Positions 1 through 45,667 of a stretch of DNA of 64,000 nucleotides are shown here, piece by piece. The DNA lies in NCBI RefSeq assembly GCF_947500605.1, contig NZ_CANMSJ010000012.1, forward strand, positions 1 to 64,000, in the 5' to 3' direction. The notes under the pieces were generated by a model that saw only the letters and a list, made by a program, of their open reading frames with translations, made no database searches and was not told the DNA's origin. Each line of letters begins with the position of its first letter. Within the stretch, counting starts at the first letter, position 1. Position numbers and translations under genes: made by a program. The stretch comes from an uncultured Lacinutrix sp. GTDB taxonomy: Bacteria; Bacteroidota; Bacteroidia; Flavobacteriales; Flavobacteriaceae.

Positions 1-2397
1 CCACAAACCATTTACATTCGTTTAGTAAGCGTTGCTAATGGTTGTGTAACAACAGGAAGTTTTGTTATTCGTGTAGAGTTTCCACCAGTAATCGATGCTA
101 ACTACGATAACATCTTAACACAATGCGACGATTTAGATGCCAATTACATGGAAGCTAACGATGGTTTTACATTCTTCGATTTAACAGTTGAAGACATTGA
201 AATCACAGGTGTAACTAACGTAAGTTGGATTGTTACTTATTACGAAACATTCGCCGATGCTCAAGCAGATACTAATGCAATACCAGATCCAACAGCGTAT
301 GAAAATACAATGACAGGTCCACAAACACTTTTTATAAGAGTAACGGATAGCGATACAGGTTGCTTTAGCTTTACAACAGTAACAATTAGAGTGATACCAA
401 ATCCATCACCAAGTCCAGATCCAGTAGATTTAGAATTGTGTGACGATATAGACATTGTAGGACCAAACGATTTATTAGAAACCTTCGATTTAACACAAAA
501 CGAAACTTTCATTATCAATGGAGAAGTTGGCGTAACAGCAAGTTATTACATTACACAAGACGATGCTATTATGGGTAACAATGCTATTGTAGATCCAACA
601 ATGCATGTTAACGAAGATCCAGCAACACCAGGCGTAGCAGTAACACCACAAACTATTTTTGTACGTCTTACCAATGGTAGCGATGCTACAGGATTAAATG
701 GAACAGGATGTTACAGTTTAGTAAGTTTCGATGTTATTGTAAACCCATTACCAGTAGTTACACCAGTAAACGATTATGTTATTTGTGAGCTGAATACAGA
801 CAACGTTGCAGACTTCGATTTAACAACAATGACTGCAGGAATATTAAACGGACAAGATCCAGCAATATTCACAGTAACTTACCATGAAACGCAAGCAGAA
901 GCAGATGCTTCAATGAACGACTTAGCAGCAAGTGGCGATTACACCAATACTAGTGACCCACAGACTATTTACGTAAACATTACAAACACAATAACAGGAT
1001 GTGATACTACTGCATTAACCTTCAACTTAGTTGTAGACGAAGCAGCACAAGCAAATCCAGATGGTGTAGCAATCGTTTACGAAGTATGTGACGATACTAT
1101 GGAGTTTGATAACGATACCACAAACGATATGGTTGAGTTTGATTTAGCAACACAAAATCCAGATGTATTAGATGGTCAAGATCCATTAAATTACACGGTA
1201 ACGTATTACGATAATCAAGCCGATGCAGATGCAGGTACAAACCCGTTACCATTTATTTACACAAACACTGTAAACCCACAAGTAATTATAGTAAGAGTAG
1301 ATAATGATATTCCAGGGACATTAAATTTAGATCTTACTACATTAACTGCCGGATTAGATGTTAATGGCGATGGTACAATAGATACTATCGACACAACAGT
1401 ACCAGCAGATGGCATCTTTGATATTGTAGATATCAATGGTGATGGTGTAGCAGAAGGATTTGATACCGATGCAGATGGTATTATCGATTATATCGACTTA
1501 GATGGCGATGGAAATGGAGATTTAGTAGATTTAAATAATGATGGAGAGGTTGATAATGATACTTCAGCATGTTATGAAACAACAACAATCACATTACAAG
1601 TAAACCCAATGCCATCATTTACATTAGAAGCAGAGTATTTATTATGTATCAATACTAATGGAAGTGAAATTGTTAACTCACCAGTTGTAAACACAGGATT
1701 AGATCCTGCATTATATACTTTTGAATGGAACTTAAACGGTACCGTTCTTCCAGGAGAAACAGCAGAGTTTATAGAACCAACCGAAGGTGGTACTTATGGT
1801 GTTGTAGCAACAGATATTGCAACAGGATGTTCAAGTATTGAAGTGAATACTTTAGTAACAGTAAGTGAGCCACCAGTAATAACATCAGAAATAACAACAT
1901 TAGCCTTTGCAGACCAACACGATGTGGTAATTACAGCAACAGGAACAACAAGTACTTCAATAGCAGTATACGAGTTTAGTATTGACGGCGGAAGCTGGGA
2001 ACTAGGAACGTTAAATGCAGCAGGAGAATACACGTATACCTTTACAGATATTGCAGCAGGCGAACATATTGTAACAGTAAGAGACACGGTAGGTTGTGGA
2101 GAAACAACACTTCCAGTAATGATTATGGATTACCCATTATACTTTACACCAAATGGAGATGGTTACCACGACACTTGGAATGTTTACGATATTGGAACAC
2201 AGCCAGACGCAGTGATTTACATCTTCGATCGTTACGGTAAATTATTAAAACAATTAAGTCCATCAGGTGCAGGATGGGATGGTACTTACAACGGTAACCC
2301 AATGCCAACAAGTGACTATTGGTTTACTGTAGAATACAGAGAGCCAAGTACGGACGAAAAGAAATCGATACGTGCGCACTTTACTCTTAAGAGATAG
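1..2397 (+). CDS. Type IX-secreted, repeat-rich surface protein (3' part)
   Basis: The reading frame is open from the first base, so the N-terminus lies outside the window. It ends at a TAG/TAA-type stop at 2397. The visible part holds at least four repeat units of about 90 residues. Each starts with an acidic C(D/E)DD-like segment and FDLT, then a VTYYxTxxDA strand, and ends in NPQTIYVRV...TGCY...VNP. One unit is interrupted by a calcium-binding-like DxDGDG-rich insert (about 1318-1566). Near the C-terminus are an Ig-like segment and a type B sorting domain (motifs FTPNGDG, IFDRYGKLL, GWDGTYNG, DYWF), which sends proteins through the type IX secretion system. It is probably an adhesin or other cell-surface protein; the exact role is unknown. 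Three related genes follow on the same strand. Confidence 0.9.
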   Translation, partial: PQTIYIRLVSVANGCVTTGSFVIRVEFPPVIDANYDNILTQCDDLDANYMEANDGFTFFDLTVEDIEITGVTNVSWIVTYYETFADAQADTNAIPDPTAYENTMTGPQTLFIRVTDSDTGCFSFTTVTIRVIPNPSPSPDPVDLELCDDIDIVGPNDLLETFDLTQNETFIINGEVGVTASYYITQDDAIMGNNAIVDPTMHVNEDPATPGVAVTPQTIFVRLTNGSDATGLNGTGCYSLVSFDVIVNPLPVVTPVNDYVICELNTDNVADFDLTTMTAGILNGQDPAIFTVTYHETQAEADASMNDLAASGDYTNTSDPQTIYVNITNTITGCDTTALTFNLVVDEAAQANPDGVAIVYEVCDDTMEFDNDTTNDMVEFDLATQNPDVLDGQDPLNYTVTYYDNQADADAGTNPLPFIYTNTVNPQVIIVRVDNDIPGTLNLDLTTLTAGLDVNGDGTIDTIDTTVPADGIFDIVDINGDGVAEGFDTDADGIIDYIDLDGDGNGDLVDLNNDGEVDNDTSACYETTTITLQVNPMPSFTLEAEYLLCINTNGSEIVNSPVVNTGLDPALYTFEWNLNGTVLPGETAEFIEPTEGGTYGVVATDIATGCSSIEVNTLVTVSEPPVITSEITTLAFADQHDVVITATGTTSTSIAVYEFSIDGGSWELGTLNAAGEYTYTFTDIAAGEHIVTVRDTVGCGETTLPVMIMDYPLYFTPNGDGYHDTWNVYDIGTQPDAVIYIFDRYGKLLKQLSPSGAGWDGTYNGNPMPTSDYWFTVEYREPSTDEKKSIRAHFTLKR

Positions 2398-42689: not shown

Positions 42690-43068
42690 AATAAACTTAA
42701 ACCTAGTCACAATAGCCTCTAACAAGACTAATACCTTAGTCTCTTTTTACAAAAAACTAGGTCTTAAGTTAATAGTAGATGCGTTGCCACGTTATGCGCG
42801 TTTGGAGTGTCCAGATGGCGAGGCGACGTTATCTATTCATTTTACAGAAACTATCTCAACAGGAAACAACATAACTTTATACTTTGAAGATGAAAATTTA
42901 GATGTTTTAGTTGAAAAACTTCAAGTAAAAGGAATAACTTTAAATCAATTACCAAAAGATGAAGCTTGGCTTTGGAAAGAAGCAAAATTACAAGATCCCG
43001 ATGGTAATAATATTATACTATTTAAAGCTGGTGAGGATAGAAAAAATCCACCTTGGCGCATTAATTAA
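42685..43068 (+). CDS. VOC (glyoxalase/bleomycin-resistance fold) protein with an unusual start
   Basis: A protein of about 127 residues. The first half (NLNLVTIASNKTNTLVSFYKKLGLKLI) is the usual first VOC module and the second has LYFEDENLDVLVEKLQVKG, LQDPDGNNIILFK. The module is complete only if translation begins upstream of TTG 42784. In that frame no ATG, GTG or TTG is found before it. The best start is ATT at 42685, overlapping the MFS stop as ATTAA. A slip at the A run (42675-42682) could also join it to an MFS-frame ATG. Possible role: metal-dependent small-molecule or antibiotic binding. Confidence 0.7.
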   Translation: MKINLNLVTIASNKTNTLVSFYKKLGLKLIVDALPRYARLECPDGEATLSIHFTETISTGNNITLYFEDENLDVLVEKLQVKGITLNQLPKDEAWLWKEAKLQDPDGNNIILFKAGEDRKNPPWRIN

Positions 43069-43815: not shown

Positions 43816-44283
43816 TTATTTAGTATCAACAATCAAGCGACTATCAATATCTAAATCTGCTACCTTAATTACTTTTAGTTTCGTAAAATCTTTATGCTTC
43901 GGATTTATTAAAATATTACTTGCCATTGGCAAAATAGCACAAGGTACTTTTAATGCTAATTTTTTATTAGCCTTTAAAAATGCAGTTCCAAGATTTGTAG
44001 TGATACTTTTTGGTGGATTGTCTCTCCAATTATCATCTAAATCTTTCAACTTTAATTTAGTATCTATTAAGTTGTCGGGAATATCAATTTCAATATAGCC
44101 AAAATCTTTAGTAAGATGTTTAAAATCTAAATGCACTAAAACTTCAAGTAAGCTGGTAGATAAGCTATCCGAAAAATAAAGCATCGGCATTCCTTTTTTA
44201 TTCCATCGCCCACCAAATAAACGAGAACCTTCTCCAGATAAATCTTCTAAATATTGCTTTTTAGCAATCCTAAATACACGCAT
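43816..44283 (-). CDS. RES-domain toxin
   Basis: A protein of 155 residues. RES toxins degrade cellular NAD+. The motif order is SRLFGGRWNKKGMPMLYFSDS (Arg26, Tyr36), SLLEVLVHL (Glu47) and ALKVPCAILP with NILINPKH. These Arg, Tyr and Glu positions agree with the known active-site pattern. Where the family name expects Ser (VPSA), this protein has Cys115. The start is three bases after the antitoxin stop; its stop adjoins the convergent lipoprotein gene without a gap. Confidence 0.92.
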   Translation of the reverse strand: MRVFRIAKKQYLEDLSGEGSRLFGGRWNKKGMPMLYFSDSLSTSLLEVLVHLDFKHLTKDFGYIEIDIPDNLIDTKLKLKDLDDNWRDNPPKSITTNLGTAFLKANKKLALKVPCAILPMASNILINPKHKDFTKLKVIKVADLDIDSRLIVDTK

Positions 44284-44286
44284 ATT

Positions 44287-44790
44287 TTAAGAATATACGC
44301 CAAATTCTATACGACCTAAAACATCTAGAATTAACCCAGTACCAAAACTAGTATCTAGTAAACTTATAGGCTTATTATAGTTTAACACCCTAATATCGCT
44401 ATGCAACCAAGAAGTGAAATTATCTAACGTACCCAAAACTTCGATACCACGAGAAACCACTTGTGCAATTTCTAAAATTTGTTCGGTACTGTATACATTT
44501 AATAAATCGCTATCGCTTTTACGTTGTATTGTACGATGTGAAATATGAATTAAATCGCTCATGCGTTCCATAGAGATACCTAACAATTTACTAAGCGTTA
44601 AAACTGCCGATTTTGGCAAACCATTTCTTGTAATTTGAATAAGATCGAAATCGCTACTTATAGAATGAGAAATATTTGTACTACCTCCTAAAACACTTAC
44701 AATTCTATCGTACTTATTATCTAAGCCGTAGAATGCTTCTGGCTCGTTTGCTAAGTTTTGAATACTATGGTCTTGCTTATACTGCTTCAT
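44287..44790 (-). CDS. Xre/ParS-like (DUF2384) antitoxin
   Basis: A protein of 167 residues. The N-terminal helix-turn-helix part (LPKSAVLTLSKLLGISMERMSDLIHISHRTIQRK) precedes a C-terminal MbcA/ParS/Xre (DUF2384) toxin-binding domain. That domain contains EQILEIAQVVSRGIEVLG, FTSWLHSDIRVLNYNKPISLLDTSFGTGLILDVLGRIEFGVYS. It neutralises the downstream RES toxin and probably represses its own operon. The operon begins here, with inverted repeats just upstream. Confidence 0.93.
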   Translation of the reverse strand: MKQYKQDHSIQNLANEPEAFYGLDNKYDRIVSVLGGSTNISHSISSDFDLIQITRNGLPKSAVLTLSKLLGISMERMSDLIHISHRTIQRKSDSDLLNVYSTEQILEIAQVVSRGIEVLGTLDNFTSWLHSDIRVLNYNKPISLLDTSFGTGLILDVLGRIEFGVYS

Positions 44791-44850: not shown

Positions 44851-45390
44851 TTAATAATTACAAACTTTGCAATCTTTTTTCTCTTGTAGTTCACCAACCA
44901 AAACGCCTTTATCGTTCTCAACAAAGCCACAACAGTCTTTAAAACCTTGTGCTACCATTTTTCTAGCACGTTGTATTTGAGATTTTGCGGTTGATAATTC
45001 TATTTTTAATTGTTTAGCAATCTCAGCTTGTTTTAAGCCTTTTATATCCGACAGAAATAATGGATCTCTATATTTTTTAGGCAAGCTTTTTATAATACCA
45101 TGTAAGCAATCAATTTCTGTATGCTCTTGTTTTTGCTCTTCAACAAAATCATCATCGGTGGTTTCATAAACTATATTTTGTTTTTTAAAATAATCAAAAA
45201 CAGTATATCTTGCTATAGAAAACAACCAGGGCTTTATCTTAGCATCATCCTTTAAAGTCCCCAACTTAGTATGTACTTTAATAAATGTTTCTTGTAATAA
45301 ATCGTCTGTTACTGTTGCATCCTTTACCATACTTAAAATAAAGTATTTAATATCTTCTGCATGCAACTTCCAAACCTCTTGAGTTTTCAT
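44851..45390 (-). CDS. sigZ: ECF-type RNA polymerase sigma factor, SigZ group
   Basis: A protein of 179 residues. Region 2 (about 8-75, TVTDDLLQETFIKVHTKL, KIKPWLFSIARYTVFDYFKK) and region 4 (about 95-155, SLPKKYRDPLFLSDIKGLKQAEIAKQLKIELSTAKSQIQRARKM) are typical of ECF sigma factors. The C-terminus adds CCGFVENDKGVLVGE and CKVC, giving four cysteines that could bind zinc or sense redox state. There is no anti-sigma gene nearby. Upstream on the same strand are a hairpin with a T run and a gene for an 11-Cys microprotein, which may control or be controlled by it. Confidence 0.88.
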   Translation of the reverse strand: MKTQEVWKLHAEDIKYFILSMVKDATVTDDLLQETFIKVHTKLGTLKDDAKIKPWLFSIARYTVFDYFKKQNIVYETTDDDFVEEQKQEHTEIDCLHGIIKSLPKKYRDPLFLSDIKGLKQAEIAKQLKIELSTAKSQIQRARKMVAQGFKDCCGFVENDKGVLVGELQEKKDCKVCNY

Positions 45391-45470: not shown

Positions 45471-45572
45471 TTAACAGTTACAGTTAGTACATGTACAATT
45501 ATCGCAAGTACAATTAGTACAGTTTCCTTTAGAGCAACCTTCGCAGTTGCAAGTACATTCTATATTTTTCAT
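45471..45572 (-). CDS. Cysteine-rich microprotein (11 Cys in 33 residues)
   Basis: A protein of 33 residues starting MKNIEC. Cysteines are at positions 6, 8, 10, 13, 18, 21, 23, 26, 28, 31 and 33, in CxC and CxxC pairs separated by Thr, Asn and Asp. There are no aromatic residues and only two hydrophobic ones. This is the composition of a metallothionein-like metal binder. It could alternatively be a leader peptide whose Cys codons sense cysteine supply, because a terminator-like hairpin and sigZ follow. ATG and stop are well placed; 95 bases upstream is the OsmC gene on the same strand. I do not recognise it as a known family. Confidence 0.6.
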   Translation of the reverse strand: MKNIECTCNCEGCSKGNCTNCTCDNCTCTNCNC

Positions 45573-45667
45573 GGTATCTAATTTTAAAGTTCATATAATA
45601 GACGCAGCATGTTTTAAAAAGATGCATTTATATCTGCTTTTATTTTAAAATGGCTTAAAATAAAATA

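Follow-up and report, generated by a model that had tools for sequence, protein, structure and literature searches.

A cysteine-rich micro-ORF conserved upstream of a SigZ-like ECF sigma factor in Flavobacteriaceae, and the metal-defence operon that the two genes probably form

The window analysed here, a whole stretch of 64,000 nucleotides from an uncultured Lacinutrix sp., contains a metallothionein-like micro-ORF that is a real, conserved gene and whose link to one clade of sigma factors (clade A) is near-obligate in the genomes compared. As judged from sequence, the micro-ORF probably leads a metal-defence operon of two genes that regulates itself and consists of a promoter, the peptide, a hairpin and a SigZ-like ECF sigma factor (Table 1).

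Table 1. Features of the proposed operon in the window, with coordinates and strand
Feature	Position	Strand	Description
Promoter-like motif, GCATCTTTTT-N12-GTCTA (-35 GCATC, -10 CGTCTA)	45599..45625	-	Likely SigZ-dependent promoter
Metallothionein-like micro-ORF, 33 aa, 11 Cys	45471..45572 (stop included)	-	Conserved family under purifying selection
Terminator-like hairpin, AACGCTAATTTCAGTA(6)TACTAGAATTAGCGTT then TTTTATAA	45408..45445	-	Between micro-ORF and sigZ
SigZ-like ECF sigma factor, 179 aa	44851..45390 (stop included)	-	Sigma70_r2 and r4_2; SigZ the best NCBIfam match, below cut-off
Sigma Cys tail, C153 C154 ... C174-x2-C177	44860..44934	-	Proposed metal-sensing element; invariant in alignments A1 and A3
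H90 and C95, in the linker that joins sigma domains 2 and 4	45106..45123	-	Possible further ligands; invariant in A3

Translation of the micro-ORF gives MKNIECTCNCEGCSKGNCTNCTCDNCTCTNCNC, a chain of 33 residues with 11 Cys, as the initial annotation had read it, and with zero aromatic residues. It possesses the traits of metallothioneins as a functional class: it is very small, about one third of it is Cys, the Cys form CxC and CxxC pairs, and aromatics are absent. That such a frame should rarely arise by chance is borne out by the counts: it is the sole frame with at least 20% Cys among the 159 ATG frames of 25-60 amino acids in the window, and dinucleotide shuffling of the window, repeated 40 times, produced two weak cases in total, the richest reaching 20% after rounding. 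The Cys spacing C-x-C-x-C-x2-C-x4-C-x2-C-x-C-x2-C-x-C-x2-C-x-C is exact in 58 of the 61 loci read. In the suggested comparison of synonymous and non-synonymous change, made over 252 close pairs, Cys codons have a pN of 0 and a pS of 0.90, TGT and TGC being exchanged freely and the amino acid never altered, and the non-Cys codons have a pN/pS of 0.44, which indicates purifying selection. The peptides give zero matches in Pfam, NCBIfam and PDB, where HMMER filters can miss such short low-complexity chains. The product would very likely bind metal.

A peptide profile built from nine relatives was searched in 397 genomes of the family and matches 59 of them, in 42 of 237 genera. A clade-A sigma factor (E 1.9e-54 or better) is present in 52 genomes of this set, and the profile detects the peptide in 50 of the 52; overall, 50 genomes possess both, two the sigma only, nine the peptide only and 336 neither. 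As genomes are related, these counts are not independent. One sigma-only genome (G114) has a peptide recognisable by eye, bringing the number to 51 of 52, and in the other (G222) both genes are decayed, with stops in the sigma gene and a frame-shifted peptide gene. Among the peptide-only genomes, the peptide of G123 (locus L127) has lost Cys and its motif is decayed. The short Cys frames that the initial annotation proposed to look for upstream of sigZ in relatives thus exist and are conserved, because 50 of the 52 clade-A genomes have one. The 61 loci read comprise 56 of the 59 profile matches, the window and four same-genus loci, with G010 and G012 read as L004 and L005. The sigma gene lies directly downstream of the micro-ORF in 52 of these loci, including L089 (a short sigma piece), L107 (cut by a contig end) and L116 (sigma recognised via the family search), and is absent from the other nine. 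A second genome collection, in which 30 of 80 loci were read, shows peptide and motif in all 11 close loci that have the upstream side on the contig; these include Oceanihabitans, Winogradskyella psychrotolerans, Tenacibaculum, Polaribacter, Gelidibacter salicanalis and Lutibacter, and several are uncultured.

The promoter-like motif begins 53 nt ahead of the micro-ORF start codon in the window. The motif or a close variant precedes the micro-ORF in 52 of 52 sigma-linked loci and in none of the nine sigma-less loci; 47 of the 61 loci match GCATC-N(15-19)-GTCT, and five (L086, L088, L089, L100 and L113) have one-base variants of the -35 box. Within its own genome, the exact motif with the given spacing is found at one place only, the operon of the window, besides a second match with a different spacing. 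Among 13 same-genus genomes the exact motif occurs once in each of eight, all with the locus, one of them (G002) having a broken sigma gene; the other five possess neither the exact motif nor a close sigma. Relaxed searches stay at the level of the reversed control, with 19 matches against 18 in the own genome (up to two mismatches) and 15 against 15 in the 13 same-genus genomes (up to one mismatch). No wider regulon is therefore claimed for this genome, and none backs the metal reading here. Over the 397 genomes the exact motif is encountered at 69 places in 63 genomes, against 14 for the reversed control, and 43 of the 69 precede the micro-ORF. Of the remaining 26 places, 23 were read (G330, G389 and G394 being left out): 18 fall within coding sequence and are regarded as chance matches, one (L166) lies 175 nt ahead of a gene, and four lie 19-32 nt ahead of a CDF gene, an rpiB-CDF pair, a DUF3703 gene and a small ORF preceding ArsM. 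Transcription from the motif of the window would, with high probability, depend on SigZ.

The best evidence for this assignment comes from a wider comparison of 140 SigZ-type loci, of which 98 show a single motif type, two show two types and 40 show none by the pattern used. The -35 box of the 98 single-type loci is GCATC in 55, GTATC in 19, GCGTC in 18, GAATC in five and GTGTC in one. Placed on a tree of the 140 sigmas, made by a quick method and containing some long branches, the -35 dinucleotide of these 98 loci requires 7 changes, compared with 39 on average and never fewer than 35 over 100 shuffles. Since the -35 box tracks the sigma clade, the motif is taken as the sigma's own promoter, and the motifs are very probably SigZ promoters. 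All 60 loci of the tree set with a 33-residue peptide carry a motif (55 GCATC, 3 GCGTC and 2 GAATC), and a branch with an SH-aLRT of 94 separates them from all other loci. Conversely, 55 of 55 GCATC loci have the 33-residue peptide and 19 of 19 GTATC loci a second type of 37 residues, found in 21 loci. GCGTC loci are mixed; 12 of 18 have no Cys peptide at all, and the motif often precedes a gene on the downstream side, ArsM or ArsI for instance. In L344 and L347 the SigZ-type sigma is flanked by the motif on both sides, with a SelD-like gene upstream (by eye) and, in L344, a PAP2 phosphatase downstream, and in L182 (G159) the sigma is followed by a 46-residue frame and an ArsM gene, each with its own motif copy before it.

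The sigma gene starts 80 nt after the micro-ORF stop. The two NCBIfam SigZ models (TIGR02959 and NF007215) are the best-matching ones over nearly the whole length of the protein, with scores of 144.5 against a cut-off of 168.65 bits and 163.5 against 212; because these fall below the curated cut-offs, 'SigZ-like' is the exact label. The Cys-rich tail attributed earlier to sigZ is indeed present (DCC...DCKVC), and its four Cys are invariant in alignments A1 (9 rows) and A3 (29 rows). No CxC is found among the invariant columns of A3 in the linker between domains 2 and 4, where H90 and C95 are the only candidates. An AlphaFold2 model of the protein (pLDDT 88.8, pTM 0.48), in which the placement of the tail is unreliable, resembles an ordinary ECF sigma factor in a Foldseek search against PDB. 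It is fairly likely that the tail senses metal directly.

The sigma profile identifies 44 SigZ-type places in 395 phylum genomes, the window included, followed by a score gap and then by ordinary ECFs. Within about 600-700 nt, 18 of the 44 loci have a short Cys-rich frame, compared with none of 20 control ECF loci, which were hand-picked from lower-scoring places without matching by lineage. The 18 exclude L348, where the match is the sigma's own tail, and five of them, one being the window, are of the window type. Among 40 further places in the family (G222 and 39 of 65 lower-scoring SigZ places), 17 have a Cys-rich frame. The commonest type besides that of the window is a peptide of 37 residues that includes 14 Cys, as in MNNCKCTNCDCTKCNCKNCLESNCPCTKCECDKCTCC. 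Other Cys-rich peptides are also encountered beside SigZ-type sigmas: peptides of 52 and 55 residues with 14 Cys each in L247 (Pontibacter sp. BT731) and L248 (a Bacteroidetes MAG), and, in L012 from another family of the order, a 26-residue frame with 6 Cys (1258-1338, plus strand; MKTKEIIVKGRNNCCDSGCCGGSGCC) shortly before a SigZ-like sigma, which is of CC type and unlike the other peptides.

No Cys-rich ORF is found near 26 of the 44 phylum loci, and the neighbours of 23 of these were read. Metal or metalloid genes are located beside or near the sigma in seven by profile and in four by eye (L335, L336, L341 and L346): ArsI/CadI in L326, L330 and L332, ACR3 also in L330, ArsM in L328 and L331, MerTP in L337, and ArsP_1 in L334. 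The remaining loci among the 23 show no clear metal gene near the sigma. A separate group (L338, L342, L405 and L410-L414) contains SigZ-type sigmas with few tail Cys directly before a PhzF-family gene, called by profile in L338 and by eye in the others. Of 40 CDF loci found in the family, 30 were scanned; in three of these the motif is found 24-27 nt ahead of the CDF gene (PF01545) or of an operon rpiB-CDF, strongly in G118 and G398 and with a weak score in G234; in the other 27 no motif precedes the CDF gene. A SigZ-type motif stands before CDF or rpiB-CDF in three genomes (L174, L175 and L207), as if the efflux gene had been recruited into the regulon more than once. These CDF proteins match Pfam Cation_efflux and ZT_dimer and are presumably of the zinc type. 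The motif of one genome also precedes a DUF3703 gene adjoining the operon. The motif before CDF and DUF3703 genes favours zinc or cadmium for the clade of the window, whose effector would most likely be one of these two, As(III) or copper being possible; the wider SigZ-type family, by its neighbours, points to arsenic, cadmium and mercury.

The gene on the other side of the micro-ORF, described initially as an OsmC thiol peroxidase, is present in the window and is OsmC-like (PF02566). OsmC adjoins the micro-ORF in only 6 of 61 loci and lies about 2 kb away in one more, IcmF is within reach in 28, and since such neighbours vary, only the peptide and the sigma form a unit. OsmC was therefore rejected as a partner on the count of adjacent loci, and its neighbourhood is incidental. 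Other genes of the surroundings can be described separately. A RES/Xre toxin-antitoxin pair (43816-44790, minus strand; NCBIfam NF049844 and NF049845, above cut-off) lies directly after sigZ; its two genes have relatives close to the operon in no more than 5 and 4 of the 61 loci. On the plus strand (42784-43068), a 94-residue frame with a TTG start resembles the C-terminal part of a 125-residue frame of L092 that is glyoxalase/VOC-like by eye. Alternatively, peptide and sigma could respond to thiol oxidants, to reactive sulfur or to electrophiles and not to metals, the peptide being a thiol buffer. In favour of this, the window has OsmC beside the micro-ORF, redox roles are possible for Cys clusters, and some SigZ-type loci, such as those with the PhzF-like gene, have no metal gene in view. 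The alternative is improbable: OsmC is seldom adjacent, the secondary target of the motif is a CDF gene, and the occurrence of SigZ-type sigmas near ArsI/CadI, ArsM, ACR3, ArsP_1 and MerTP argues for metals or metalloids rather than plain thiol oxidants. Of the metal- or thiol-sensing module guessed at first, a metal-related pairing of peptide and sigZ is thus well supported by the 50 of 52 genomes and by metal-gene neighbours elsewhere, sensing itself being inferred, and the part played by OsmC is not.

Between the end of the hairpin and the start of sigZ are 17 nt. The 75 nt that follow the micro-ORF stop fold with z<-2 relative to shuffles in 48 of 49 sigma-linked loci (median z -4.6; L089, L107 and L116 omitted), compared with 1 of 49 for 75 nt inside the frame and 0 of 9 for the 75 nt after the stop in sigma-less loci. 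Its stem sequences vary between genomes. The hairpin appears somewhat more probably than otherwise to be a partial terminator that holds the sigma low relative to the peptide; since the T-run that follows is modest (32 of 49 loci have at least 4 T of 8), it may instead be a processing or stability element. Polycysteine attenuators are known in mycobacteria, and eleven Cys codons with a terminator-like hairpin just ahead of sigZ would fit a leader peptide at which scarce Cys-tRNA stalls the ribosome and allows read-through into sigZ. Pairing of the leader with the first arm of the hairpin is, however, no better than in shuffled sequences (z has a median of +0.36 and is below -2 in 1 locus of 49), so that such attenuation is unsupported. 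In addition, the Cys are spaced as CxC and CxxC with the exact spacing described above and are not in tandem, selection acts on non-Cys residues too, and the peptide is kept in nine genomes without sigma, motif or hairpin (although decaying in L127), all of which makes a leader function highly improbable.

The nine genomes with the peptide alone could also suggest that peptide and sigma are separate genes, sharing a transcript by chance, and that the sigma controls something else. This view deserves very little credence, as the peptide accompanies the clade-A sigma in almost all genomes by profile, stands directly upstream of it in all 52 sigma-linked loci, and is replaced by different Cys peptides at the same place in other SigZ clades, and motif and hairpin are gained or lost together with the sigma. 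That the micro-ORF, being short, is a chance frame and no gene can be dismissed, as it is contradicted by codon selection, the shuffle counts, the profile family across relatives and the conserved spacing.

For the metal-defence operon, the following mechanism is proposed. A thiophilic metal or metalloid would bind the Cys tail of the sigma, perhaps together with H90 and C95, and the metal-loaded sigma would recognise GCATC-N17-GTCTA, whereupon RNA polymerase would produce many copies of the peptide message. Most transcripts would be stopped or destabilised by the hairpin, so that little additional sigma is made. The peptide would chelate the metal with its 11 thiolates, free metal would fall, and the sigma would be switched off too. 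In a few lineages the same promoter may have been placed before a zinc-type CDF efflux gene as well. Feedback of the peptide on the sigma is put forward tentatively, as rather less probable than the other steps. More speculative, and on balance doubtful, is a Bacteroidota-wide switch of SigZ-type sigma and short Cys peptide, in which the peptide would strip metal from the sigma tail and thereby act as a dissolved, metal-exchanging 'anti-sigma'. It is equally conjectural that dissimilar peptides (33 residues with 11 Cys, 37 residues with 14 Cys and others of 26-55 residues) occupy one position next to different SigZ clades, several with a -35 box of their own, and that a single cell might thereby operate a number of separate metal circuits.

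CorE and CorE2 of Myxococcus xanthus are CRD-type ECF sigma factors, formerly ECF44 and now ECF238. They are described as possessing a short Cys-rich C-terminal extension and as controlling metal-defence genes and partly themselves (PMC3107203, PMC8999054). The sigma of the window shares with them ECF regions 2 and 4 and a Cys-rich C-terminal extension; it differs in that CorE has a CxC in the linker, whereas here the linker has only H90 and C95 and the tail is CC-x19-CxxC. The first target of CorE is a multicopper oxidase or copper ATPase, whereas here a metallothionein-like peptide comes first under the likely promoter. CorE has no linked anti-sigma, and in the operon of the window the peptide is the only conserved neighbour. 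Among the 21 CRD sigmas named in PMC3107203, which come from four phyla, Bacteroidota are not represented. Short Cys-rich metal-binding peptides accompany a metal-responsive regulator in the cyanobacterial pairs smtA-smtB (PMC7387436) and AzuR-NmtA (PMC8790569). The regulator in both is an ArsR/SmtB-family repressor, whereas here it would be an activating sigma whose gene follows that of the peptide. Mycobacterial MymT, as described in PMC10141476, is a short metallothionein regulated by RicR; the latter is a CsoR homolog for copper, in contrast to the sigma factor found here. CorE is the nearest known sensor and SmtA-SmtB the nearest peptide-regulator pair. The descriptions of the NCBIfam SigZ models contain no mention of a Cys peptide partner. 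In the open-licence literature searched, no metallothionein-like peptide is described as being encoded together with a sigma factor, in agreement with the initial statement that no description of the pairing was known, and no metallothionein-like system of Bacteroidota was found there either. To our knowledge, no such system is known for this phylum.

If the proposed operon is correct, it would provide Bacteroidota with a metallothionein-like system and would assign a function to a large set of Cys-tailed, SigZ-like sigma factors. The promoter code, in which the -35 dinucleotide tracks the sigma clade, would aid the prediction of targets from sequence. The operon would represent a compact, one-input and self-limiting circuit that might be used as a metal sensor.
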